A stretch of 23,112 nt of DNA, from IMG/VR virus record IMGVR_UViG_3300007029_000007, positions 1-23,112 of that record; one strand, 5' to 3'. Positions 3,765-23,100 of this stretch are shown one piece after another. How positions within the stretch are numbered: position 1 is the stretch's first letter; every line of letters starts with the position of its first letter. Both the position numbers and the translations under genes were made by a program. The notes beneath the pieces were generated by a model, which searched no databases, was not told where the DNA came from, and saw only the letters and a program-made list of their open reading frames with translations. This DNA comes from a virus.

Positions 3765-4253
3765 ATGGAAGAACCTAATGAACTTAAGAGAATGAAAGCA
3801 TTCTTAACTTACCTTAACTGTAACACATTTAAAGAGGTAAGTCAAGAGACAGATGAATCTCAGTATCATATCCAGAACTGGGCTAAGGAGGAAAACTGGA
3901 TTGAGAGACGTAAGAAACACTTTAAGATGGTACAAGAACAAATGGTAGATAGTCAGCAGAGATTAGCTCATAAACAAGCACTCCTGGCTAATCAAGTTGT
4001 TGATAGGCTTTCTGATATGATTAGTGTTAACCTAGACGAGGTAGAGATTAGGTCAGTATCTGACTTATGGGAAGCCTTTGCAACTGGTATTGAAGCTTTA
4101 CAGTCACTAACTGGTACACAACCGGTAACACAACAAGATAATGTACTATCACAAGTAAACATTAACCTGGATAGTAGTGAGAAACAGGCTGAGTTTGATG
4201 AGATAATGGATGGTGCTTATGAAGAACTTGAAAGAGATGAAGAAAACAGTTAA
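3765..4253 (+). CDS. terS: Terminase small subunit
   Basis: This 162-residue protein lies immediately before the large terminase gene. Residues 8-45 form a helix-turn-helix (TFKEVSQETDESQYHIQNWAKE) followed by a basic WIERRKKH segment, as in phage small terminases that bind the packaging site. The central part is helical and fits the oligomerisation region, and the acidic C-terminus (residues 140-162) fits the part that contacts the large subunit. The ribosome binding site is GGTGA (3754-3758). Its end overlaps the next gene by 44 bases. The assignment rests on HTH, size and position; direct sequence identity to a named family is not certain. Confidence 0.75.
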   Translation: MEEPNELKRMKAFLTYLNCNTFKEVSQETDESQYHIQNWAKEENWIERRKKHFKMVQEQMVDSQQRLAHKQALLANQVVDRLSDMISVNLDEVEIRSVSDLWEAFATGIEALQSLTGTQPVTQQDNVLSQVNINLDSSEKQAEFDEIMDGAYEELERDEENS

Positions 4254-5940
4254 GCGTATACTTAGGTCTAACTTATCTCATCCTACCAAACAACAGATGT
4301 TAGACTTAATATACCGGGAGTCTATACTACCAGTAGCTGATACAGAACCTTGGGCATTCTGTGAATATTGTCTTAAAGATGATAAAACGGGTGAACATAT
4401 ACGACTTAAAGACTTTCATAAAGATTGGTGTAAGATACTACAGAATGAACAATATATTGTAATCTGGAGTCCACATCACTCAGGGAAGACGACTGTATTT
4501 TCTACAGGTTGGCCCTTGTTTAGTCTGGGTAACAATCATAGGATACGTATAGGATTATGTTCTAAATCAGCAGGACAGGCGCGTAAGTTTCTCTTAAGTA
4601 TTATGAGTTACATTAAGAGTGATGAGGTAGGTAAAGTGTTTCCTGAGCTAAAACCTATGCCTGACCCTCAACATCCATGGCAAGAGTTTCAGTGGTCTAA
4701 GAGAGATGGTATAATTGTTGACCGCGACTCATCAAGTAAGGATAATTCAGCTGAAGCTTTTGGTATAGGTACGACTATACAATCGGCACATCTCGACTTA
4801 CTTATACTCGATGATGTGTTAACGCGAAAGAATACACTAACTCGTAAATCATGTAAGAATGATATTGAGTGGTTTGATAATGTAATGAATAACCGAGTAG
4901 AGAATGATGGTCAGGTTATAGTTGTAGGTTTAGCATGGAGACCTTATGACTTAATGTCCTACCTTTCTGAGAAATCTAACTGGTATTCAGCTAAATACTC
5001 AATGGATGAAAGAGATAAAGGTGACCCTGAGTATATATATATTAACTGGGAGAAAAAACACCCTAAAGAGCAACTAGAAGAAGAAGAAGAACATAATGTA
5101 GAAGTATACAATAAGCAGCGTAGGTCGCATGTTAGCGATGAGTCTACACATATATTTGATATTGATAAGATAAAACTTAACTCCGATATTGAGATACCTA
5201 ACAGTTGGATTAGTTGTACTGGTGTAGATTTGGCGACTAAGAAACGGCCGGGTACAGCTATTGTTACAGTTGCTATGTCTCCGGACAGACAGTCGAAAGT
5301 TTTAATAGATATTAAGTTTGGTAAATGGTCAGGTCCAGATAAGGCTAAATATATAGGTGAGAGGTTTGATATGTTTAAACCTGTTAAAGTTATTGTAGAA
5401 GATAATGCTATGCAGGAGGATAACATAGACTGGATGATAGCCTCAGGATATAGGAATCTACCCCTTGAAGGTATAACTACTACAGGGGCTAACAAAGACG
5501 CTTATCTGGATTCACTCGCGGTTGAAGTGAGGAATGGGTTATGGGCATTTAAGACAGAGCAACATAAGAAAACATGTAAGTGTGACTGGTGTAGACTTCT
5601 TAGTGAGATACAAGAGTATCCAGAAGCTTCCACTTCAGATGGTCTCATGGCTCTTATGTTCGCTAATCAGGGTATAAGAGGCAAACGTAGCCAGCTTAAA
5701 GTGAGAAGCGCGAGTATTAAGGGCGGGAAGATACTACCAGAGAAAAAGTTTGACATTTCCGCATACAGATGTTATAATCGTATATCAAGAAATCAGGGGT
5801 TTGACCCTCCTAAGGATTACAAGCTAATAGTTGAAGCTATAAAGAATAATAGAAGCCTTAGTCAATGGGATGATGAGGTTATATCCTATGTAAGAGATGA
5901 CATGGAGCGGTTTGTAAGAGTTTTAAACGAAGGTAAATAG
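4210..5940 (+). CDS. terL: Terminase large subunit
   Basis: This is the packaging motor. The ATPase domain has a Walker A loop SPHHSGKTT (Lys93) and a Walker B LLILDDV (Asp201, Asp202). The C-terminal RNase H-fold nuclease shows three spaced acids: Asp340 in GVDLA, Glu397 in VIVEDNA and Asp477 in TSDGLMAL. Length (567-576 residues) is typical. The start is uncertain: ATG 4210, 4219 and 4237 are all in frame and none has a clear ribosome binding site, so translation is probably coupled to the small-subunit gene. A CxC..C cluster (CKCDWC) near residue 457 may bind a metal. A perfect promoter is embedded near its 3' end (5750-5778). Confidence 0.95.
   Translation: MVLMKNLKEMKKTVKRILRSNLSHPTKQQMLDLIYRESILPVADTEPWAFCEYCLKDDKTGEHIRLKDFHKDWCKILQNEQYIVIWSPHHSGKTTVFSTGWPLFSLGNNHRIRIGLCSKSAGQARKFLLSIMSYIKSDEVGKVFPELKPMPDPQHPWQEFQWSKRDGIIVDRDSSSKDNSAEAFGIGTTIQSAHLDLLILDDVLTRKNTLTRKSCKNDIEWFDNVMNNRVENDGQVIVVGLAWRPYDLMSYLSEKSNWYSAKYSMDERDKGDPEYIYINWEKKHPKEQLEEEEEHNVEVYNKQRRSHVSDESTHIFDIDKIKLNSDIEIPNSWISCTGVDLATKKRPGTAIVTVAMSPDRQSKVLIDIKFGKWSGPDKAKYIGERFDMFKPVKVIVEDNAMQEDNIDWMIASGYRNLPLEGITTTGANKDAYLDSLAVEVRNGLWAFKTEQHKKTCKCDWCRLLSEIQEYPEASTSDGLMALMFANQGIRGKRSQLKVRSASIKGGKILPEKKFDISAYRCYNRISRNQGFDPPKDYKLIVEAIKNNRSLSQWDDEVISYVRDDMERFVRVLNEGK
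5750..5778 (+). promoter_or_regulatory. Perfect consensus promoter inside the terminase gene
   Basis: TTGACA (5750-5755), a 17-bp spacer and TATAAT (5773-5778) match all 12 consensus bases, and TG at 5770-5771 adds the extended -10 element. Transcription would start near 5785, about 185 bases before the portal ATG. It lies within coding sequence, and so would express portal and the following genes independently of the terminase. Confidence 0.8.
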
Positions 5941-5969
5941 TTTACATTAAGTAATACGAGTTGGTGATT

Positions 5970-7400
5970 ATGGCTTTAATACGTAAAGCATATAAGAAAG
6001 CTAAGAATATGTATAAGATTGCTAAGTTTGCTACCAGTGATGACCGTAGGATGAAGGTCTTATCCGATACAGTTGAGTACTATTTGTCTTCAGGTAAAGA
6101 TACATCCTACGTAGAACCGTCAGTAAAGACTACACTTAATACTTACCAACGGTTACTCTGGGTCTTCAAAGGTATACATGAGTCAGCTTCTCAAGCTGCA
6201 AGTGTACCCCTAACCATAAAGAAACTTATAGGTCCAGAAGAAAGTGAAATTGATAGGTTACATCCTGTTAACGAACTTAAGACTAATCCTAATCGATTAC
6301 TTACCGAGCAAGAACTTAAAGAACGAACATTTGCATATCGTAAGTTAGCTGGTGAAGCTTTCTGGTTTATTGATAGAGAGAAGCCCGGTGGATTACCCGT
6401 TAAGATACATGCGCCACGACCTGATGCAGTATCACCCGCTAAGAAAGAACATGATATAGCTGTATTTTCCTATAATGGTAAACAGTATAAGATGAAAGAT
6501 GTTATACATTTTAGACAGTTTAATCCACTTTCTTCATTTAGGGGTTTGTCCTCTATAGCTCCACTTGAAGATTCACTCATATTAGAACTGTATGAAATAA
6601 CATATGGCCAAACATGGTATGCTAATGCAGTTAATCCATCAATGCTATTTTCTACTGAAGATGAGGTAACTGATGACGAATATGAGCGATTCTTAGCTGC
6701 TATGCGTCGGTTGCATCAAGGAGTAGAAAAATCTGGACGTATTGACCTTATACAAAGCGGTATTGAGCCGATGGAGTTTAATATTAAGAATCCAACTGAA
6801 GGTGAATACATAGAGATTAAAGAGCTTGATAGAGACGAAATACTAACCGGTCTAGGTTGTTATCATTTAGCAGCCAGCCTCAGAGGTGAAAATAATCTTA
6901 AAGATTATGAGAGGATGTTTTGGAGGTCTCTTGTACCTGAGCTTACTAATGTTCAGCAAAGGATAACTAAAGAACTTATACGACAGTATCCTAAATCTGA
7001 GGATTGTTACGCTGAGTTTGACTTAAGACAAGTATCAGGACTAAGACCCGACCTCCTGGATGAGAGTTTAGCCTATTATAGGTTATGGCAGTCAGGTGTT
7101 ATGACAGCAAATGAGATACGTAATCGTATAGGTTTAAGTGGTAAAGTTGAATGGGGAGATAACCCACCACCTGCTATACCGTTTGCCAGAACTTCTCATC
7201 TCCCTAATGAGCAGAGAGAACATGCTGAAGGTTTGCAACCTCATACTGAGAGATATGTTGATAGTATAGCTGAGAATGTAGCTGACCGTATGGTATCTGA
7301 AAATGGAGATTTAGATAAATCAGTTGCTAAAACTATAGTAAGAGATGAGTTTAGGAGATACTTAAACGGACGAACAGTTACAGAAGAAAGCTATATATAA
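5970..7400 (+). CDS. Portal protein
   Basis: This 476-residue protein has features of HK97/SPP1-like portals. There is a basic N-terminus, then a region with VEPSVKTTLNTYQRLLWVFKG, IHFRQFNPLSSFRGLSSIAP (the typical 'DvIHir..np...rGlSpi' stretch near residues 175-200) and a long stem/crown helix region. The C-terminus is acidic and helical. It forms the dodecameric ring at the capsid vertex through which DNA is packaged. It follows the large terminase by 29 bases. ATG 5970 is preferred, although GGTGA is only two bases upstream; in-frame GTG 5964 and TTG 5961 are alternatives. Expression is likely supported by the promoter at 5750-5778. Confidence 0.9.
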   Translation: MALIRKAYKKAKNMYKIAKFATSDDRRMKVLSDTVEYYLSSGKDTSYVEPSVKTTLNTYQRLLWVFKGIHESASQAASVPLTIKKLIGPEESEIDRLHPVNELKTNPNRLLTEQELKERTFAYRKLAGEAFWFIDREKPGGLPVKIHAPRPDAVSPAKKEHDIAVFSYNGKQYKMKDVIHFRQFNPLSSFRGLSSIAPLEDSLILELYEITYGQTWYANAVNPSMLFSTEDEVTDDEYERFLAAMRRLHQGVEKSGRIDLIQSGIEPMEFNIKNPTEGEYIEIKELDRDEILTGLGCYHLAASLRGENNLKDYERMFWRSLVPELTNVQQRITKELIRQYPKSEDCYAEFDLRQVSGLRPDLLDESLAYYRLWQSGVMTANEIRNRIGLSGKVEWGDNPPPAIPFARTSHLPNEQREHAEGLQPHTERYVDSIAENVADRMVSENGDLDKSVAKTIVRDEFRRYLNGRTVTEESYI

Positions 7401-7473
7401 CCGACTAGATAGTTATCAGTTCACTATCCTTACTAGCTACATTATGTTAAAAAGGGGCCATTAAGAGAATATA

Positions 7474-8664
7474 ATGATGGAAGATTTATCCCAAGAACAA
7501 ATATATGAACTAAGTGATAAGAAGCTGGAGAACTTACACGGTAGGTTACATGCTTACTGGCGACGTGCGTGTAGTGGTGAAGGTTGGGATAAGGATGAGA
7601 TTGTAAAACTGCACCTTAGAGTGATTAACGCGTTTATTGATAGAGATAAGCGTCATAAGAAGAGAGATAAACTTGATAATTTTAAGTCTTATTCCACTAA
7701 TCTTGACGATTATGAAGAACTAGAGATGGCGTTAACTGGAGTTACCGGTGCAGGTGAAGAGTGGGAATCTACTCAGTTTGGTAGGCCTTTGCCCGGTATA
7801 TATTTACGTCAACCTCATGTTAAAGAGATAGTTGAAGGTGAGAAGACTCTTATAACTCAACCGCGTAAGTATACTAAGTTTACTGGTACACCCATTTATC
7901 TTGTAACTAACAGGGAAGACACTGAAGCTGAGGTATACGGTATTATAGTATTAGACTATCCCGTAGATATAGGGTTGCAAGATTTTAAGGCGTTAAGAAG
8001 TAAACATAGAATTAGTGAAGATGAGCGTAAGACAAGGTGGCCGGATAGGGAGAGGTTTTATGCTTATAGGTTTAACCTACAGGAGACCTATATTGAACCT
8101 AAGAAGGCAGTTAACCTCCCAATGAACGCGGTAACATGGATAGGTCAGGTTGAGATAGCTAAGAAGCTGAATCAAGAGTTTCTTAACGCGGTTGAAGAAG
8201 TAGAAGATTTAGTAGTTATACCTAACTTTGCATCTTTCAGTGGTTCAGGAGCTACATCTAAGGTCGACCGGGAGCCTAATGATACAGAGATAATATGGAG
8301 AGCAGACTTTGAGGAAAGTTATCTTAAGATACCTTTAACTGAGTGTCTTATGAAGTTTGATAGAGCTTTCCCTAAGAATATACAGGATGAGTTTGACCAT
8401 GTAGATTCGTTTGTGGGACCTACATGGCAAGGGTATGGGTTATGTGATTTAGTGTTAAGGTTTAAACATCCACCTGAGAAGATAGAAGTTGATGAGAGTT
8501 ACTCTTATCATAAGAAGTTTAAGATTGAACTTATGAAACCTTTTAAACCTATTAAGTCAAAGGCTGGGTATCATAAGTTTGAGTTTGAAGTAGGAGACGA
8601 AGAAGAGCTATGGGAAACATGGGCTAAAGGATACATTAAAGAAGGGGAACCAAATGCCACATAA
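7474..8664 (+). CDS. ASCH-like plus nucleotidyltransferase-like protein
   Basis: This 396-residue protein has three parts. Residues 1-75 are helical and charged. Residues 105-205 read like an ASCH/PUA-type fold (YLRQPHVKEIVEGEKTLITQ, YGIIVLDYPVDIGLQDFKALRSKHRI), a class that binds modified bases or RNA. Residues 245-390 contain SGSGATSKVDREPNDTEIIW: Gly257-Ser258 followed by Asp270-x-Glu272, which fits the GS...DxD/E signature of minimal Pol-beta-like nucleotidyltransferases. AAGAGA lies ahead of ATG 7474 (ATG 7477 is also possible). It opens the block between portal and capsid that also holds ligase and methylase. Domain calls are by motif; enzymatic activity is inference. Confidence 0.6.
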   Translation: MMEDLSQEQIYELSDKKLENLHGRLHAYWRRACSGEGWDKDEIVKLHLRVINAFIDRDKRHKKRDKLDNFKSYSTNLDDYEELEMALTGVTGAGEEWESTQFGRPLPGIYLRQPHVKEIVEGEKTLITQPRKYTKFTGTPIYLVTNREDTEAEVYGIIVLDYPVDIGLQDFKALRSKHRISEDERKTRWPDRERFYAYRFNLQETYIEPKKAVNLPMNAVTWIGQVEIAKKLNQEFLNAVEEVEDLVVIPNFASFSGSGATSKVDREPNDTEIIWRADFEESYLKIPLTECLMKFDRAFPKNIQDEFDHVDSFVGPTWQGYGLCDLVLRFKHPPEKIEVDESYSYHKKFKIELMKPFKPIKSKAGYHKFEFEVGDEEELWETWAKGYIKEGEPNAT

Positions 8665-8911
8665 GATATATAAGTGTAATTATTGTGATTATGAGGATGT
8701 AAACATAGATAGTGTGATAGAACATGAGAAAGAACATATACGAACTATAGATATAGAGCAGGTTAAGAGTGATGACACTCGTTCTCCTGCAACTATGAAA
8801 GTATCAGAGTTTGAAGGTTGTATAAGTTTAACTTTTATTACAGGGACTGAAGGGACAAGACGAGAATATAAGTACAGAGTACCATCCACTGAATTAAGGG
8901 ATGCATTATGA
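8654..8911 (+). CDS. C2H2 zinc-finger protein
   Basis: The 85-residue product starts with a classical finger: YKCNYCDYEDVN followed by IEHEKEH gives Cys-x2-Cys-x12-His-x3-His at residues 8-27. The remainder is a small strand-rich domain (CISLTFITGTEG, REYKYRVPS). GGGG lies just upstream of the ATG, and the gene overlaps the preceding one by 11 bases and the next by 4 (ATGA), so it is translationally coupled in both directions. Zinc-dependent DNA or protein binding is likely. Its setting among DNA-processing genes suggests a targeting role, but nothing in the sequence proves it. Confidence 0.75.
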   Translation: MPHKIYKCNYCDYEDVNIDSVIEHEKEHIRTIDIEQVKSDDTRSPATMKVSEFEGCISLTFITGTEGTRREYKYRVPSTELRDAL

Positions 8912-9297
8912 AGCTATTTGCGTTCGACCGCGATAATACAATAGATGTTAATCAAGGGCCGGTACCGCTTTCATGGGTTAGGTATCTTGCTGAGGAAACC
9001 GAGCATGAGGTATATGCTATCGGTAACCAAGCTCTTAAGAAAGAGGCAGGTATACCGGGAGTAGCAGAAGCGCAAGAGAAGCTGAAATCTAAGGAAGATG
9101 TAGGTAAAGGTACTCATGTTGGTATGCCAGCACGACGGGAGAGAGTTAGAATGTTAAAAGAACTATTTCCCAGTAAAGGTGAATATATAGTTATAGATGA
9201 TGCTGATTTGTCTAATATGGAGGATGAAGGATGGACGTATTACAGTCCTGATGACTTTGTTCGGGAGTACAAATGGAAGTTTAGGTTAGTTAGATGA
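8908..9297 (+). CDS. HAD-like phosphatase
   Basis: The N-terminus FAFDRDNTID carries the HAD motif I, DxDxT (Asp7 nucleophile, Asp9 acid/base). VIDDADL near residues 95-101 fits motif IV, the acidic metal site. Length (129 residues) implies a capless HAD core, the class that acts on large substrates such as nucleic acids or proteins. A basic segment ARRERVRMLKEL between the two motifs can supply the motif III Lys/Arg. It overlaps both neighbours by four bases. Near a DNA ligase, a polynucleotide 3'-phosphatase role like that of PNKP is attractive but is inference; nucleotide or protein phosphatase are alternatives. Confidence 0.7.
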   Translation: MKLFAFDRDNTIDVNQGPVPLSWVRYLAEETEHEVYAIGNQALKKEAGIPGVAEAQEKLKSKEDVGKGTHVGMPARRERVRMLKELFPSKGEYIVIDDADLSNMEDEGWTYYSPDDFVREYKWKFRLVR

Positions 9298-9659
9298 ACT
9301 TTAAACATTTTAACATAAGTGAGTTCTACTGTAAGTGCGACCGGGAACACGATAAACAATTAGTTAGTGAGAAGCTAATCTTACTTCTTGATATAGCGCG
9401 TGATAGGGCCAGTGTAGCATTTAGGATTACTTCAGGTTACAGATGTCCGGAGCATAACAACGAAGTAGACGGTGTATCTGATTCTGCTCATGTTAAAGGT
9501 TTAGCAGCTGATATTAAGGCTGAAAGCTCTACTATTAGATGGAAGATATTAACTGAGCTGACGAAAGTAGGTTTCTCTCGTATAGGTATACATAAGAGTT
9601 TTATACATGTGGATATAGACGACTCCAGGGAGCAAGAAGTAGTATGGGTGTATGTGTAA
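9294..9659 (+). CDS. M15-family peptidase (D-Ala-D-Ala carboxypeptidase-like)
   Basis: The 121-residue protein matches the Peptidase_M15 fold: ITSGYRCPEHNNEV, then SAHVKGLAADI (His66, Asp73) and FIHVDID (His105, with Asp after it). These are the zinc ligands and catalytic region of D-Ala-D-Ala carboxypeptidase and L-Ala-D-Glu endopeptidase phage enzymes, which cut peptidoglycan stem peptides. It has no signal peptide and no cell-wall-binding domain. It could be a minimal endolysin or a virion-associated lysin. The position inside the head operon rather than a lysis cassette, with no holin visible beside it, is unusual. It overlaps the HAD gene by 4 bases and the next gene by 8. Confidence 0.88.
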   Translation: MNFKHFNISEFYCKCDREHDKQLVSEKLILLLDIARDRASVAFRITSGYRCPEHNNEVDGVSDSAHVKGLAADIKAESSTIRWKILTELTKVGFSRIGIHKSFIHVDIDDSREQEVVWVYV

Positions 9660-9921
9660 CCTATGTAATCTTAAACGTAAGACTAAGTGGTATTTCAGTA
9701 ATAACAGTTGGATAATTTGTAACTGTACTACTTGTGGTATACCCATGGCCGTCTATCGAGAGCATACAATGCAGATACCTGCAAATGAACTTCAACAGAT
9801 ACTCAGGATTATAGACCAGTTACTTGACTCAGCTACTTTAAGAATGAACCAGCGTAAGATTAAGAAGCACTTTCATTTTCATATAGTCCTAAAGAACTTG
9901 AAAAAGGAGAGTAACAGATAG
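9652..9921 (+). CDS. Small HIT-like (histidine triad) protein
   Basis: The C-terminal segment KKHFHFHIV contains His73-Phe-His75-Phe-His77-Ile-Val, which fits the HIT motif H-phi-H-phi-H-phi-phi exactly. The N-terminus begins CNLC, as HIT proteins often begin with a zinc-binding CxxC, and continues with a strand, ICNCTTCG, then PMAVYREH, which parallels the 'lviPkrH' strand and conserved His of the fold. At 89 residues it is shorter than usual (about 110-140). HIT enzymes act on nucleotidyl-phosphate bonds, and aprataxin, a HIT member, removes AMP left on DNA by failed ligation. The ATP-dependent ligase gene follows directly, so such a role is attractive but inferred. Confidence 0.6.
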   Translation: MCNLCNLKRKTKWYFSNNSWIICNCTTCGIPMAVYREHTMQIPANELQQILRIIDQLLDSATLRMNQRKIKKHFHFHIVLKNLKKESNR

Positions 9922-9925
9922 TAAA

Positions 9926-11035
9926 ATGTCTATTATAATACAGCCTAAGTTTGACGGTGTACGGATGGTCGTGCACCGCAACCATGACGAAGTACGTATT
10001 TTCACAGAAGATGAGATGCGCGAACGACAACAGGTATTACCACAGGTTGTAGAAGCAGTTAAGAAGTGCGTAGCAAGTGAGCAAGTTATACTTGACGCTG
10101 AGTTCGTCTTGTACGAAGATGGGAAACCGCAACCACGTGAGGATATGCTGGAACTGGTTGTAGGTAAAGAAGAGATAACTGAACCACTTAAAGTATTTGT
10201 TCACGACTGCGTATACGACAGCAAACCTATAAATGAACAAGGATATCTGGATAGAATAAAACACGTACATGAGATTATACTACATGAGGTTACACGTAAG
10301 AATGATATACTCATACCAGCTGTATACTGGGTAGCTACTAGTAAGAGTGAATTTATGGAAGCGCTTAAGAAAGCATACAAGTTCGAAGGTTCCGAAGGTA
10401 GTATGCTAAAATGGTCTAAGAGTAAGTATCTACCCGGTGTAGCTCGTACTGCTGATTGGGCTAAGATAAAAGTAACCCAAGAGTATGCGGGCAAGATAAT
10501 AGGAATAACTAAGAAAGCTATGCCTTGGGGACATATAGGTAAGAGTGAGCCTAAGACAAATATTACAGGTGATAAAGCACTTAAGCTATATAAGCGACTA
10601 CAAGAAGACAGCAACACTTATAAGTTTAGGCTTGCTGTTAAATCTGATAGCGAGCTTATACCTATGGAGTCTAAAGTAACCGTAACCGAGAGTATGCATA
10701 AGGTAAAATGGAATGCTGATATTAAAGAGCCTAAATGGCAAGGTACAGACGACCCCCGTATATGGAAGACTGATAAGAGTTTCCCGCCTAAAGAAGTAGG
10801 TGATTATGCATATGCTAATACATATAATAAGAGCTATAAGAAAGTTAAACCTAAGCTGGGTATGATAGTAACTGCAGCGCCTAAGAAAGTAGTTAAGTGG
10901 AAAGATGATGAGGATAACGTCCATTACTCTCATATGTTTCCCAGACTTAAAGAGTTAAAGCCTGAGAGGAAACAGCCAGATAGTATTAGCGATGTTCATA
11001 AGATTAATAAGATAGAGAAAAAACTTGACAACTGA
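9926..11035 (+). CDS. ATP-dependent DNA ligase
   Basis: The nucleotidyltransferase motifs are present in order: motif I KFDGVR (Lys8 nucleophile, close to the N-terminus), IIIa LDAEF (Glu59), III VFVHD, IV EGSMLK (Glu157) and V AKIKV (Lys180, Lys182). Residues from about 185 hold an OB-fold-like region ending in a basic, Lys-rich tail. It seals nicks using ATP. The start is tight: only seven residues precede the catalytic Lys, and AAGGAG is 17 bases upstream of the ATG, which is far. It lies in one run with the HIT-like gene and ends five bases after the -35 box of the next promoter (11025-11053). Confidence 0.88.
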   Translation: MSIIIQPKFDGVRMVVHRNHDEVRIFTEDEMRERQQVLPQVVEAVKKCVASEQVILDAEFVLYEDGKPQPREDMLELVVGKEEITEPLKVFVHDCVYDSKPINEQGYLDRIKHVHEIILHEVTRKNDILIPAVYWVATSKSEFMEALKKAYKFEGSEGSMLKWSKSKYLPGVARTADWAKIKVTQEYAGKIIGITKKAMPWGHIGKSEPKTNITGDKALKLYKRLQEDSNTYKFRLAVKSDSELIPMESKVTVTESMHKVKWNADIKEPKWQGTDDPRIWKTDKSFPPKEVGDYAYANTYNKSYKKVKPKLGMIVTAAPKKVVKWKDDEDNVHYSHMFPRLKELKPERKQPDSISDVHKINKIEKKLDN

Positions 11036-11053
11036 TAAACAAAATAGTATAAT
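11025..11053 (+). promoter_or_regulatory. Perfect sigma-70 promoter for the methylase-protease-capsid operon
   Basis: TTGACA (11025-11030), a 17-bp spacer and TATAAT (11048-11053) match all 12 consensus bases. The -35 box lies in the last codons of the ligase gene. Transcription would start near 11060, giving a leader of about 95 bases that contains a long hairpin (11092-11136). It is well placed to drive the morphogenesis genes. Confidence 0.85.
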
Positions 11054-11091
11054 TTAGTTATAAGTCCCTAGGAGAAACTATCATAGATTAA

Positions 11092-11136
11092 ACTGGATAG
11101 AACAGATAGAGAATAAGGTTATCTGTTCTGTTCAGT
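11092..11136 (+). promoter_or_regulatory. 17-bp stem-loop in the 5' leader
   Basis: Bases 11092-11108 pair with 11120-11136 over 17 continuous positions, two of them G-U, around an 11-base loop. The inner ten pairs (AGAACAGATA with TATCTGTTCT) are perfect. No T-run follows, so it is not a classical terminator. It lies between the promoter start and the AGGAG at 11145-11149, so RNase III processing, transcript stabilisation or protein-dependent translational control are possible. Confidence 0.7.
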
Positions 11137-11153
11137 CTTGTAATAGGAGTATT

Positions 11154-13688
11154 ATGGCAAATTATGACCATTCAACTGATAAATCCAAAGGCCTGTTTGA
11201 TAGCGTTGGTATAGAAATGCCCCAGGCTCAAATAGCTAAAGGTATTAACTTGATAATAGGTCATCCAGCAGGTAAATGGTATCTATCCAATCGTATAATT
11301 AAGATGATACCCGACCATAAGACATATGTTGAACCTTTCTGTGGTTCAGCCTCAGTATTCTTCTCCAAAGAGCCATCTGAAAAAGAAGTATTAGCTGATA
11401 TAAACTCCGATTGGACGTTCATACTAAAGTTTGTAAGAGACATGAAACCCACACAGAGAGACGCTCTTAAAGGTTATAATTGGACGCCGGCTAAGAGTAG
11501 AGTTAAGGAGTTTATTAAAGATATACACAAAGGTAACTATGATAATGATACTCGTAGGTTTTATAAGACTATTTATGCGTATAAACACTCGTTTAATAGT
11601 ATGTTAGAAGGTGGCTACTCGTCGGCTGCTGCTCCTGTAAACAAGTCGCGCATAGATTACTGGTATGATACCAATAAACCCAGGCTTGAAGGTGTTAAGG
11701 TTATAACCAAACCTGCGAAGAAGGTTATAAAAGAGTATGATAGTGATGATACATTCTTCTACCTTGATCCGCCTTATATAGGTGGTGAGTGGCATGGGGA
11801 CTATGGTAAAGGTGAAGATACATTTGACCTTGATAAGTTTATCAGTCAGCTTAAGAAAGTAGATGGTAAGTTTATATGTTCATATTCATCTGACATGAAA
11901 GATAAGTTCAAAAGTTTTAAGACTAAGTCTATCAAGGTCCAGCAGGTTTCCACTAAGGATAGAGGTAAAAGTACGCGTAAAGAGATAATAGTGAGTAACT
12001 TCTCTGTGGTCTCTAAAGATACAGAGAAACAGGTTAAAGATGAGAAGTTAGATGAAGGTGAGGGAGAACTTACTCGGCAGGAACAACGTGAGCTACTTGA
12101 GGAAGAGCTGGGGAACTATTATATGGTAGAACAACCTGAAGATAAAGTGTTTCCCTGGGTGTTGCAGTATCACTTAAGGGGTATATGGTCATCTGAATAC
12201 GCTGAGAGGCTTAAATCATGGTTTAAATCTCTTAGAAAGGGTAATATACCTGAGGATATAAATGAAACAGTCAGCAAACGGCTTAAGCTATATAAGAGTA
12301 GACTTAGGAAGATAGATACATTTTATGAGAATCTTACTAAAACGGAAGAGTTAACCGGTGTAGATGGTGAGCCTGTTACTGTTGAGTCTGGACTTGTAGC
12401 TCTAAGTAAGAGACACAAGCAAGCTAGGGCTGATGTACAGAAAGTAGTTGATAGGTGTAAACTCATTAAGAAGGCTACTGAAGAAAATGATACTGAAACT
12501 GTCTATAAGCAGGTATGGAAGGATAACGATTGTGAGCGGTTAGATTCTACACTTAAGAACCTATCAGCTGAACTACAGGAAGTAGATGATGAACGTGGTG
12601 ATGTTACTCGCGCGTTGGATAAACATTTGGATGAGAAACCTTCTAAGCTGAGCGAGCTTGACTTATCCATCGTGTATAATAGGGGTAATGTACATGGCGA
12701 TTTAAGGAATGAAGAACCTGAAGGTAGATATCTTGTAAGCTGGACTAATAATACTGTTAAGGTTGTACTACAAAGTCTGGATGATAAACTCTATTATCCT
12801 TTAAGGGATAGAATACTAGAGAATAAAGAAGGTGACCAGTGGTTAAGTGAGAAGAAGGCACCACAAGGAATAGCTTGGAGGAAGCTTGTTACACCTGATA
12901 AACCTATGTATGAAGCTGAACCTGAACAAGTAGGCGCGACATCAGAGACTTCAGGTAGGTTCTATTTAATGGCTAAAGGTAAGATGGCTTATGGTATAAT
13001 GAAATCAGATTACCATGAACTTTTCTATAGATTTGATAATGTATATAAGCGGGCTAATCGTGAACCTAAACCTGCTGATACGCTTAATGGTAGGTGGGAT
13101 TATAAGCTTATACCTTCAAGAAAAGAGTATACTAAAGCGCCTGAAGATGAGTTCTGGATGGGTTCTCGGCCGTGGGCTACTCAAACTCCTTACATATTAA
13201 CACATGATAAGGAGGAAGAAGAAAAGAAGGCTAAAGAAGATGAGATAGAGATGATATGGAATGAAACTATCCTTAGCGCGCTTAAGAAGCTGGGTCTACA
13301 ATCGCTCATAGAGAAAAGGGTTAACCTGTTTAAAGTTGATAAAGAGCGTCAGGTGATTAAAGGGCCTGCTCTTGTACCTATGGAGAAAGATAAACAGGGT
13401 GATACAGTAACTAAGCAGGAAGTAGAAAATGCATTCTATAAGTTTGCTAAACGTGACCCTAAACTTGTTAGTATAGAACATGATGAGGATACTTATCATA
13501 GGGATAATAAAATAGTAGAGTTATGGTTAACTGAACAACCTAGGGATTGGAATGGTATTAAATTACCTTCTAAGACTATGATGGTAGGCATCTTTATGGG
13601 TAATTCTAATGATTGGAAACGTGTTAAAGAAGGTGAGTTAAAAGGGTTTAGTATAGGAGGTGGAGGTGTAAGATATGTCAGAACGTAA
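11154..13688 (+). CDS. Adenine methylase / phosphoesterase-like / XkdF-like prohead protease fusion
   Basis: The 844-residue product has three regions. Residues 30-285 are a D12-class (Dam-type) DNA N6-adenine methylase with the S-adenosylmethionine motif EPFCGSAS (Phe62) and catalytic DPPY (205-208). Residues 320-690 are mostly helical, then contain NVHGDLRNEEPEGRYLVSW (His514-x-Asp516-x-Arg518), resembling the HxDxR core of the LigD 3'-phosphoesterase domain. Residues 705-844 match the XkdF-like putative prohead protease family (Peptidase_S78_2), with His776 (SIEH) and Ser833 (GFSIGG). AGGAG precedes the ATG. It overlaps the scaffold candidate by 14 bases. Protease self-cleavage may release the enzymes (inference). 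The middle domain is the least certain. Confidence 0.78.
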   Translation: MANYDHSTDKSKGLFDSVGIEMPQAQIAKGINLIIGHPAGKWYLSNRIIKMIPDHKTYVEPFCGSASVFFSKEPSEKEVLADINSDWTFILKFVRDMKPTQRDALKGYNWTPAKSRVKEFIKDIHKGNYDNDTRRFYKTIYAYKHSFNSMLEGGYSSAAAPVNKSRIDYWYDTNKPRLEGVKVITKPAKKVIKEYDSDDTFFYLDPPYIGGEWHGDYGKGEDTFDLDKFISQLKKVDGKFICSYSSDMKDKFKSFKTKSIKVQQVSTKDRGKSTRKEIIVSNFSVVSKDTEKQVKDEKLDEGEGELTRQEQRELLEEELGNYYMVEQPEDKVFPWVLQYHLRGIWSSEYAERLKSWFKSLRKGNIPEDINETVSKRLKLYKSRLRKIDTFYENLTKTEELTGVDGEPVTVESGLVALSKRHKQARADVQKVVDRCKLIKKATEENDTETVYKQVWKDNDCERLDSTLKNLSAELQEVDDERGDVTRALDKHLDEKPSKLSELDLSIVYNRGNVHGDLRNEEPEGRYLVSWTNNTVKVVLQSLDDKLYYPLRDRILENKEGDQWLSEKKAPQGIAWRKLVTPDKPMYEAEPEQVGATSETSGRFYLMAKGKMAYGIMKSDYHELFYRFDNVYKRANREPKPADTLNGRWDYKLIPSRKEYTKAPEDEFWMGSRPWATQTPYILTHDKEEEEKKAKEDEIEMIWNETILSALKKLGLQSLIEKRVNLFKVDKERQVIKGPALVPMEKDKQGDTVTKQEVENAFYKFAKRDPKLVSIEHDEDTYHRDNKIVELWLTEQPRDWNGIKLPSKTMMVGIFMGNSNDWKRVKEGELKGFSIGGGGVRYVRT

Positions 13689-14292
13689 GAAGATTAGTGA
13701 CAACTGTCCACCCGGTGAAACATGTGAGCTTGAAGATATACTTATACGGGAGATAGCAGTAGCTCAGACAGGTGCAGTTGATAAAGCTAATGTAACAATC
13801 TATAAAAATGAAGGAGGTAAACCAATGTCAGGAAAAACAGATGAAACAACAGATAATGACATTGAAAAGAAAAGCTTGAAGGCCGCAGCTAAAGAAGCAG
13901 TCTCACTTATTGAGGATGCTGATATTAGCGGGGAGAAGACTAAGAAACGTGTTAAACTGCTTATTGCTAACCTTAAATCATTAGCTGGTGTTAAGAAAGC
14001 TGATGACGATTTGCTTAAGTCTATCGTTGACTTAGTCGAGTTACTTGAGAAAGCTGATAAGTTTGCTAAAGATATAAAGTCGTGGGTCTATCCATTACCC
14101 GGTAGTAAGAAGAAGCAGAAACCTGAAGAATATGAGGGATATGATTATGAAGGTTATAAGGGTGAAAAGACTGAGAAGTCTAATAATGGAGACCCTAATA
14201 TCTCTAATACAGTTAAAGAACTTACTCAGTTAGTTCAAGATGGTTATGTTAAACCTAAAGAACTGACTGATATATTTGGCGAGGAGGTGTAA
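13675..14292 (+). CDS. Putative scaffold or head-maturation protein, long form
   Basis: The 205-residue protein lies between prohead protease and capsid gene, the usual place of the scaffold. GGAGGTG precedes ATG 13675, which is inside the end of the protease gene. Residues 1-50 include a Cys pair and IREIAVAQTGAVDKANVTIYKN, a short strand-rich segment like that found at the end of protease domains. Residues 51-130 are charged helices suited to a coiled coil. Then comes a Gly/Tyr/Glu-rich linker (EEYEGYDYEGYKGEK), and a short helical C-terminus that could bind the capsid protein. An internal start at 13825 probably yields a second product. Confidence 0.65.
   Translation: MSERKKISDNCPPGETCELEDILIREIAVAQTGAVDKANVTIYKNEGGKPMSGKTDETTDNDIEKKSLKAAAKEAVSLIEDADISGEKTKKRVKLLIANLKSLAGVKKADDDLLKSIVDLVELLEKADKFAKDIKSWVYPLPGSKKKQKPEEYEGYDYEGYKGEKTEKSNNGDPNISNTVKELTQLVQDGYVKPKELTDIFGEEV
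13825..14292 (+). CDS. Nested in-frame short form, scaffold candidate
   Basis: Within the longer gene, a full-length AAGGAGGT (13811-13818) lies six bases before ATG 13825, in the same frame. This is one of the strongest ribosome binding sites in the window, as good as that of the capsid gene. It would give a 155-residue protein consisting only of the charged helices, linker and C-terminus. Nested scaffolds made from an internal start are known, for example lambda Nu3 within C. Making both a strand-bearing long form and a scaffold-like short form fits that precedent, but only the site is seen. Confidence 0.5.
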   Translation: MSGKTDETTDNDIEKKSLKAAAKEAVSLIEDADISGEKTKKRVKLLIANLKSLAGVKKADDDLLKSIVDLVELLEKADKFAKDIKSWVYPLPGSKKKQKPEEYEGYDYEGYKGEKTEKSNNGDPNISNTVKELTQLVQDGYVKPKELTDIFGEEV

Positions 14293-22019: not shown

Positions 22020-22035
22020 CTTGTCTTCGACTATC

Positions 22036-23100
22036 ATGAGAGTATTCTTCTCAACAGATTACATAAATGATAAGGTACTTAATGGGGCGGAGTATGGGAT
22101 ACATGTTTCGCCCGGGTGGAGTAATTTTACCTCACAAGTTGTAAAGTTACTCGAAGAACAGGTAGAACTAACTGATGATTATAGAGAGGCTGACTTAGAG
22201 TTATATGTGGGTCAGCCTTGCTACTATCGTAAGCCTCAGTTGCGACCTGCAGTATTCATATCAATGTTTGAGAAATACGAACTGCTTGATGGTTGGGTAG
22301 ACGCGTTGAACAACTTCGACCTAGTATATAATACCTCAACTTGGGGAGTTAAAAGTTTTAAAGATAGTGGTGTTAAGAATGTTAAATACTTGAAACCACC
22401 TATAGCAATCAATGATTATGAGTATAAGAAGCGACCTCCTACAGAAGAACATTTTCGAGTACTAACACAGATAGCTAAGGTAAGCGATAGGAAAGGTTCA
22501 CAGTTAATGTACTCGTTGTATCAGATGAATAAGATGCCCGGCACGCTTATCATTAAATCATGTCCCAATGAACACGAACAACGTATATCAGGTTATGTAA
22601 GTAAGAACATAGCATTAGTACAAAGGTTTATGCCAACTGATGAATATCATGAGTTCCTTGACGGTATACACCTATCAGTTAACCCTACAAGAGGTGAAGG
22701 TATAGGTCTTATGCCAATAGAACATACTTTATCAGGTATACCTACAATTGTACCTGATTATTCGGCATGTCATGATTTCATAGATTATATGATACCGGTA
22801 AAGTATACTGATACAACTTCAACTGCAAGGGGTTATGATATACAGGTAAATACTAATGACCTTAAGCGTGTTATAAAAAAGGCGTACTCAAATTATGCTA
22901 AGATAGAAGAAGAAGCCATAACTAACGCGAAGAGGTTAAGAGAGTTTCTCACTCCATATCAGGATATAAGGGGCGACTTAAGGGAGCTAATTAAGGATGT
23001 ACCAAGACAGGTGCAACCTTATAATGCTGTTGAAACAACGTTTAACCTAATAGATGATATGATTGGAAACTCAAAGCAGCAATATAGGAGTCGGCTATAA
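22036..23100 (+). CDS. GT-B glycosyltransferase
   Basis: The 354-residue protein has a Rossmann-type N-terminal half and a C-terminal half with NPTRGEGIGLMPIEHTLSGI: Glu221-x7-Glu229 is the EX7E signature of family 1/4-type retaining GT-B enzymes, which bind the nucleotide-sugar. GIPTIVPDYSACHDFID follows as in that family. The upstream part includes LITQIAKVSDRKGSQLMYS-like sequence (the nucleotide-binding region). ATG 22036 has no clear ribosome binding site; TTG 22021 is in frame. It may decorate tail or capsid proteins, or alter host surface sugars. It ends in TAATG with the next gene, hence coupled. Confidence 0.85.
   Translation: MRVFFSTDYINDKVLNGAEYGIHVSPGWSNFTSQVVKLLEEQVELTDDYREADLELYVGQPCYYRKPQLRPAVFISMFEKYELLDGWVDALNNFDLVYNTSTWGVKSFKDSGVKNVKYLKPPIAINDYEYKKRPPTEEHFRVLTQIAKVSDRKGSQLMYSLYQMNKMPGTLIIKSCPNEHEQRISGYVSKNIALVQRFMPTDEYHEFLDGIHLSVNPTRGEGIGLMPIEHTLSGIPTIVPDYSACHDFIDYMIPVKYTDTTSTARGYDIQVNTNDLKRVIKKAYSNYAKIEEEAITNAKRLREFLTPYQDIRGDLRELIKDVPRQVQPYNAVETTFNLIDDMIGNSKQQYRSRL

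Follow-up and report, generated by a model that had tools for sequence, protein, structure and literature searches.

The virus record IMGVR_UViG_3300007029_000007 from IMG/VR, whose 23,112 bases were analyzed as a whole and are called the window below, encodes a group of predicted DNA-end-processing enzymes between its portal and capsid genes. These are a putative nucleotidyltransferase (NTase) of the Pol-beta type, an ATP-dependent DNA ligase, and a LigD-type 3'-phosphoesterase (PE) domain that lies in a single gene (11154-13688) between a D12 methylase and an S78_2 head-maturation protease. The set is carried by about a hundred relatives, mostly uncultivated viruses, and comparing them shows a conserved core of NTase, ATP-dependent ligase and LigD-type PE beside head genes, with the PE often fused to the S78_2 protease. 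The features of the window, with profile matches given as E-values and hidden Markov model abbreviated as HMM, are:

4210-5940, plus strand: TerL, by HMM likeness to other TerL proteins
5961-7400, plus strand: portal protein (Pfam Phage_portal, 5.4e-43; PHROG portal, 7e-41)
7474-8664, plus strand: helical N-terminal domain (residues 1-142) and putative Pol-beta-type NTase (about residues 231-364, with G257-S258, D270-x-E272 and D325)
8654-9921, plus strand: putative cargo at the NTase/ligase break, namely genes for a C2H2 finger, a HAD-like protein, an M15 peptidase and a zinc protein with a HIT motif
9926-11035, plus strand: ATP-dependent DNA ligase with adenylation and OB domains (Pfam DNA_ligase_A_M, 3.4e-22)
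11154-12053, plus strand: D12/Dam-type N6-adenine methyltransferase domain (residues about 31-294, with VEPFCG and with DPPY at 205-208; Pfam MethyltransfD12, 5.6e-18; PDB matches to Dam)
12051-13253, plus strand: LigD-type PE domain, by family HMM (H340, H514-x-D516-x-R518)
13299-13685, plus strand: S78_2 (XkdF) head-maturation protease domain (Pfam Peptidase_S78_2, 2.2e-12)
13675-14292, plus strand: overlapping open reading frame (ORF), homologous to positions 9174-9728 of the closest relative, contig L002
14296-15693, plus strand: major capsid protein (PHROG virion structural protein, 1.6e-9); its N-terminal region, as read from the sequence, is charged and probably helical

An earlier note on this DNA had described the genes between portal and capsid as a DNA end-repair kit. 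Its gene order and coordinates agree with the ORFs and with the Pfam and PHROG matches, and profiles confirm its C2H2 finger (Pfam, 1.2e-6), M15 peptidase (7e-15; PHROG endolysin, 1e-28), ATP-dependent ligase, D12 methylase and prohead protease. The labels for two other small genes stood only in part. The HAD-like protein (8908-9297) has the motifs DRDNT...IDDAD and a weak match (5e-4), its sole one in the phage collection, to Aeropyrum coil-shaped virus; the HIT-like protein is assigned by its HxHxH motif alone; and neither has a convincing Pfam or PHROG match of its own. The Aeropyrum virus match is a hint of an archaeal host. The protein at 7474-8664, which the note had called ASCH/nucleotidyltransferase-like, kept the second half of its name by its motif and by the matches of its relatives (see below), while no ASCH part was detected.

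In L002, the portal, protease fusion and capsid are found as in the window, and the counterparts of the 7474-8664 protein and the ligase form one ORF of 720 residues with nothing in between. The window ligase is colinear with this fusion at its N-terminus, as is the window 7474-8664 protein at its C-terminus, which corresponds to the linker preceding the ligase. Because the genes at 8654-9921 interrupt a protein that is whole in L002, the C2H2, HAD, M15 and HIT genes are, on this comparison, inserted cargo outside the conserved unit, and motif and profile searches of the ORFs in the fetched flanks found none of them in any other contig. The repair kit in the head operon was therefore borne out for NTase, ligase and PE, which make one conserved unit, and not for these four. 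The earlier note had further proposed a full pathway, in which a HAD phosphatase and a HIT deadenylase would join NTase, PE and ligase in mending single-strand breaks. It draws on the gene order of the window and on the HAD and HIT motifs; the absence of these genes from the ORFs in the fetched flanks of all other contigs led us to reject HAD and HIT as pathway members, and the uninterrupted NTase-ligase fusion of L002 also argues against the pathway, to which we give hardly any credence. L002 has in addition three ORFs at 4330-6789, one of them tail-spike/pectate-lyase-like, that separate its ligase from its protease fusion, where the window has none. Judged from such comparisons, cargo seems to enter the module where its parts are separated.

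A more distant example of the undivided chain was reached through a weak match (E 0.09). Directly after its portal gene, the virus ANMV-1 (KP703175.1) encodes a protein annotated as ‘ATP-dependent DNA ligase’ (AJP62006) that holds NTase, ligase and PE-like parts in one chain. Domains that the window spreads over three genes are thus joined into a single polypeptide at the same place in a distant virus. The ANMV-1 chain resembles the window set in having NTase, ligase and PE adjoining the portal; it differs in lacking methylase and S78_2 and in having an extra, degenerate PE-like part, and the prohead protease of this virus (DUF2213) is encoded far off. Those who described ANMV-1 argued for an archaeal host from its TATA-binding protein and methanotroph-like genes, and left the ligase unmentioned. 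We found a TATA-binding protein gene in two records, ANMV-1 and that of contig L065, and this marker identifies both as archaeal viruses.

To define the family, we scanned IMG/VR three times with alignments of the PE domain alone and removed duplicate contigs. The PE is carried by 115 non-redundant records, the window and ANMV-1 included, which form 96 clusters at 90% identity and 19 at 50%. With full flanks defined as at least 5 kb before and at least 2.5 kb after the PE, 57 records qualify, and they contain a ligase in 55 cases, an NTase in 47, S78_2 in 34 and a methylase in 15. Because the PE queries held neither ligase nor NTase sequence, the presence of these two is independent evidence, and the gene linkage exceeds chance, with PE-only searches recovering a ligase in 55/57 contigs. 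The earlier note had named such co-occurrence in other viruses as a check, and the ligase and NTase counts provide it. Fusions within the same ORF are common: NTase with ligase in 74 contigs, ligase with PE in 69, PE with S78 in 58, and all four together in 32. The tie between a repair gene and the prohead protease, seen in the earlier note from the window, thus extends to 58 contigs. Wherever S78 was detected there is exactly one S78 ORF per locus, and in the window the sole S78 match is the C-terminal domain of the methylase-PE fusion.

With few seeds, and with the portal seed trimmed of its N domain, a portal, MuF or TerL gene was recognized upstream in 45 of the 69 records that have 6 kb of upstream DNA. 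The portals beside the module belong to several unrelated families by PHROG matches. Ligase/PE genes also occur in large virus contigs (L070, L080, L084, L089 and L090, 107-156 kb), with no portal recognized adjacent. Distances for PE, ligase, NTase, S78 and portal correlate across contigs (r 0.61-0.72), which fits joint descent; because the portal correlates as strongly as the module parts themselves, this correlation alone shows no functional link. The ratio of nonsynonymous to synonymous substitution rates (dN/dS) is 0.05-0.27 for close pairs, and the module is under purifying selection.

The family was reached through PE alignments only: IMG/VR scans with single proteins (the ligase, the 7474-8664 protein and ANMV-1 P0002) gave no relatives, and a search of 50,697 annotated phage records with queries from four members found the set solely in ANMV-1. 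A PE likeness in Lactococcus phages spans two genes and was taken as protease likeness only. Two scans of cellular genome contigs returned no relatives, so that no cellular or proviral copies were placed. In six contigs (L013, at 5329-9320, and L016, L018, L019, L049 and L064) the ligase is split mid-way over consecutive ORFs, one with a methyltransferase (MTase)-N-ligase front and one with the rest of the ligase, NTase and PE; a ligase in two pieces, a frameshift or some other way of joining the halves may lie behind this.

The window PE stretch has no Pfam match of its own and was assigned to its family by HMM. Among 20 family members, nine match Pfam LigD_N, the best at 1.1e-6, and a PDB profile search with the PE alignment gave no significant match. 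We modeled member L010 with AlphaFold (AF2) from a 20-row alignment that includes the window, with a predicted local distance difference test score (pLDDT) of 82 and a predicted template modeling score of 0.80; a model of the whole fusion from two sequences (pLDDT 36) was not used. In Foldseek and VIA-align comparisons, the L010 model matches the archaeal LigD PE 3p43 with Z 16.9 and a root-mean-square deviation of 2.0 over 123 residues, followed by the LigD PEs 3p4h (16.8), 3n9b (14.2), 5dmp (12.9) and 2lj6 (11.8). The six top structure entries are all archaeal or bacterial LigD PEs, while the next unrelated structure has Z 5.7. Modeling of the PE, another check named in the earlier note, therefore supports its methylase/LigD-phosphoesterase-like/protease fusion, together with the family HMM and LigD_N matches for the PE and the Pfam matches for D12 and S78_2. 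The Mn ligands of LigD PE are kept across the family, with H42 in 107/107, H48 in 107/110 and D50 in 108/111 members, as is the phosphate-binding R52 (107/112). Their window equivalents are H340, H514, D516 and R518, with a long helical insertion separating H340, the first metal-binding histidine, from H514-x-D516-x-R518.

Catalytic residues of the other domains are likewise kept. The window ligase has K8-x-D-G-x-R, E59, S-E-G..K162 and K180-x-K182, with an OB domain read from sequence; the KxDGxR lysine is kept in 84/86 ligases, as are the later motifs (III, IV and V). The 7474-8664 protein (396 residues) has no convincing Pfam or PHROG match of its own, and the NTase alignment has no significant PDB profile match. 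NTase relatives weakly match NTP_transf_2 (4/19) and DUF6932 (7/19), and in the motif GS..D-x-[DE] the glycine is kept in 77/77 relatives, the first aspartate in 76/78 (D270 in the window) and the second in 77/78 (E272 in the window). A further carboxylate is the aspartate of YDLVLR, D325 in the window. In S78_2, the catalytic histidine is kept in 69/70 and the serine in 68/68 (H776 and S833 in the window).

Besides the core, the chains hold variable parts. Among 99 unassigned chain segments we found metallo-beta-lactamase folds (12), uracil-DNA glycosylases (9), 2H/LigT phosphoesterases (3), Acb1 (1), NUDIX (1) and methylases. In eight records the uracil-DNA glycosylase directly precedes the PE, between ligase and PE, as in L025, with L022 having it across two ORFs; the repair reading is strengthened because this enzyme shares a chain with NTase, ligase and PE. 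The Acb1 anti-CBASS domain of one chain (8.7e-34) and the 2H/LigT phosphoesterases of three suggest counter-defense cargo within the same proteins. Intein splicing or LAGLIDADG domains occur in 8-12 of the 99 segments, and inteins appear frequent in the chains.

The closest known kind is the virion polyvalent proteins of phages, which Iyer et al. 2017 (PMC5512222) consider to be packaged and injected. These are likewise large, variable multi-domain chains of portal-terminase phages encoded with virion genes, with Dam-type methylases, Pol-beta NTases, 2H phosphoesterases and a protease domain and with predicted host entry along with the DNA. By term search, the text of that paper lacks LigD and has ligase in three places, one of which concerns RNA ligases never found with 2H domains. 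Compared with the proteins described there, the viral module has a constant NTase-ligase-LigD PE core, and the protease recognized in it is S78_2 and not a zincin. Zincin-like metallopeptidases are a theme of the polyvalent class, though not a universal one, and Pfam scans covering the window chain and the unassigned parts showed none. The likeness of gene context and the variable cargo listed above favor an explanation in which the chain is a polyvalent counter-defense protein: the methylase would hide incoming DNA from restriction, ligase, PE and NTase would reseal or cap DNA attacked by host nickases, other domains would break nucleotide signals, and repair would be one of several unrelated, co-delivered activities. 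The NTase-ligase-PE core stays constant while the cargo varies, which fits one joint substrate, broken DNA, and we regard the counter-defense explanation as quite unlikely.

In HK97-type head assembly, the maturation protease resides in the prohead together with the scaffold, which it processes. Because the one S78_2 domain found near the head operon is fused to the PE and the methylase, and proteases of this class work inside proheads, it is probable that the repair domains are located in or on the prohead. We propose that genes of the head operon make up a LigD-like heal-and-seal machine that is anchored to the S78_2 protease, is brought to the prohead and mends the genome at packaging or entry, a reading that we judge to be evenly balanced between true and false. 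The machine would consist of a Pol-beta-type NTase, an ATP-dependent ligase and a LigD-type PE, accompanied by a Dam-type methylase; in the window, what is usually one chain is spread over three genes, and the four small cargo genes lie at one of the breaks. Processing by the protease would free the repair domains, or they would stay tethered. Their work would be to trim 3' ends, supply nucleotides and close nicks, either at packaging and within the head or when the genome enters the next cell, and the methylase would mark viral DNA. We infer the activities, the prohead location, the release, the injection and the timing from domain content and gene context. More tentatively, and with somewhat less than an even chance of being right, we suggest that tailed viruses over a broad range, including archaeal viruses, pack a protease-fused repair chain (NTase, ligase, PE and sometimes uracil-DNA glycosylase) that is freed by the protease and mends the genome on entry.

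The position of the module between the portal and capsid genes, and its fusion to a protease presumably active during the prohead stage, would also fit enzymes that work inside the infected cell, with replicating or concatemeric DNA at the packaging site as their substrate; the protease fusion would then only dock them on assembling heads before they are degraded or left behind, never injected. Sealing nicks before packaging would be useful. Replication-linked ligation, however, needs no docked, complete repair set, and Acb1 and 2H phosphoesterase cargo in relatives is more in keeping with early action in a new host; action confined to the infected cell thus seems unlikely, although a serious candidate.

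Several observations weigh against a packaged heal-and-seal machine, among them the PE active site. By sequence alignment, the H84 site is Q in 62 members, E in 31 and H in 2, and the Y88 site is W in 111/112; in the window, Q571 occupies the H84 position and W575 that of Y88. Mutation of PE H84 or Y88 inactivates Pseudomonas aeruginosa LigD (PMC8656161), and the 3'-phosphatase activity of the viral PE may be changed or lost. Because both residues are replaced though the metal ligands and R52 are kept, we interpret the viral PE as a PE-fold relative with an altered active site rather than a canonical LigD PE, and its reaction may differ. The NTase is small (about 130 residues) and, although gap filling is possible, may not be a gap-filling polymerase. 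No head gene was recognized upstream in 24 of the 69 contigs, as searched with few seeds and including L118, which was then shown to have a portal; these contigs may have other head proteins or a different context. Finally, Ku (PF02735) was found in none of 40 records, some of them fragments, with a positive Bacillus subtilis control, and plain bacterial non-homologous end joining (NHEJ) was rejected on this ground.

The replaced PE residues would also fit domains that are catalytically dead relics, retained for a structural or scaffolding role in the protease chain. The ligase lysine, the NTase carboxylates and the metal ligands of the PE hardly vary among the 19 PE clusters at 50% identity and dN/dS is low, which makes this explanation very improbable.

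Like LigD and the split archaeal NHEJ set of Pol, PE and ligase, the viral module joins nucleotidyl transfer, 3'-end healing and ATP-dependent sealing, and the best fold matches of its PE are the archaeal PEs 3p43 and 3p4h. It differs in its Pol-beta-type NTase, where LigD has a polymerase of the archaeo-eukaryotic primase type, and in a PE that has H84 and Y88 replaced, is fused to a head protease and methylase, and lies in a virus head operon. Pfam scans covering the window chain and the unassigned parts of relatives, which included no search aimed at the polymerase family itself, revealed no primase-type polymerase.

The S78_2/XkdF protease has been suggested as the head protease of jumbo phages (PMC7824862). 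The viral chain shares with S78_2/XkdF proteases a C-terminal domain with conserved histidine and serine and a location before the capsid gene, and differs in an N-terminus that bears methylase and PE, to which relatives add ligase, NTase and uracil-DNA glycosylase. The ORF at 13675-14292 overlaps the end of the fusion and starts with LEDILIREIAV, resembling the continuation of an XkdF-type protease, and the same split appears in L002 (9174-9728); it is probably the split-off C-terminal or scaffold part of the S78_2 protease. Elsewhere in the window, 1410-2174 encodes a DUF932 protein and 22021-23100, at the right end, has a weak match to GT4-like glycosyltransferases. Literature searches, with limited reach into subscription papers, found no description of a joined NTase-ligase-PE/head-protease fusion, and a joined repair core fused to a head protease is apparently undescribed in the literature searched.

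Genomes of tailed viruses have to come through packaging, extracellular storage and injection before viral expression, and may by then have nicks, deaminated bases or damaged ends. If our reading is true, a repair chain joined to the head protease would place repair enzymes with the genome before any viral gene is expressed, and the question of whether virions carry DNA repair would become directly testable in a defined protein family. The altered active site of its LigD-type PE merits biochemical study. The family also suggests a likely function for the large genes annotated as ‘hypothetical’ or ‘DNA ligase’ beside the portal in many uncultivated viruses.

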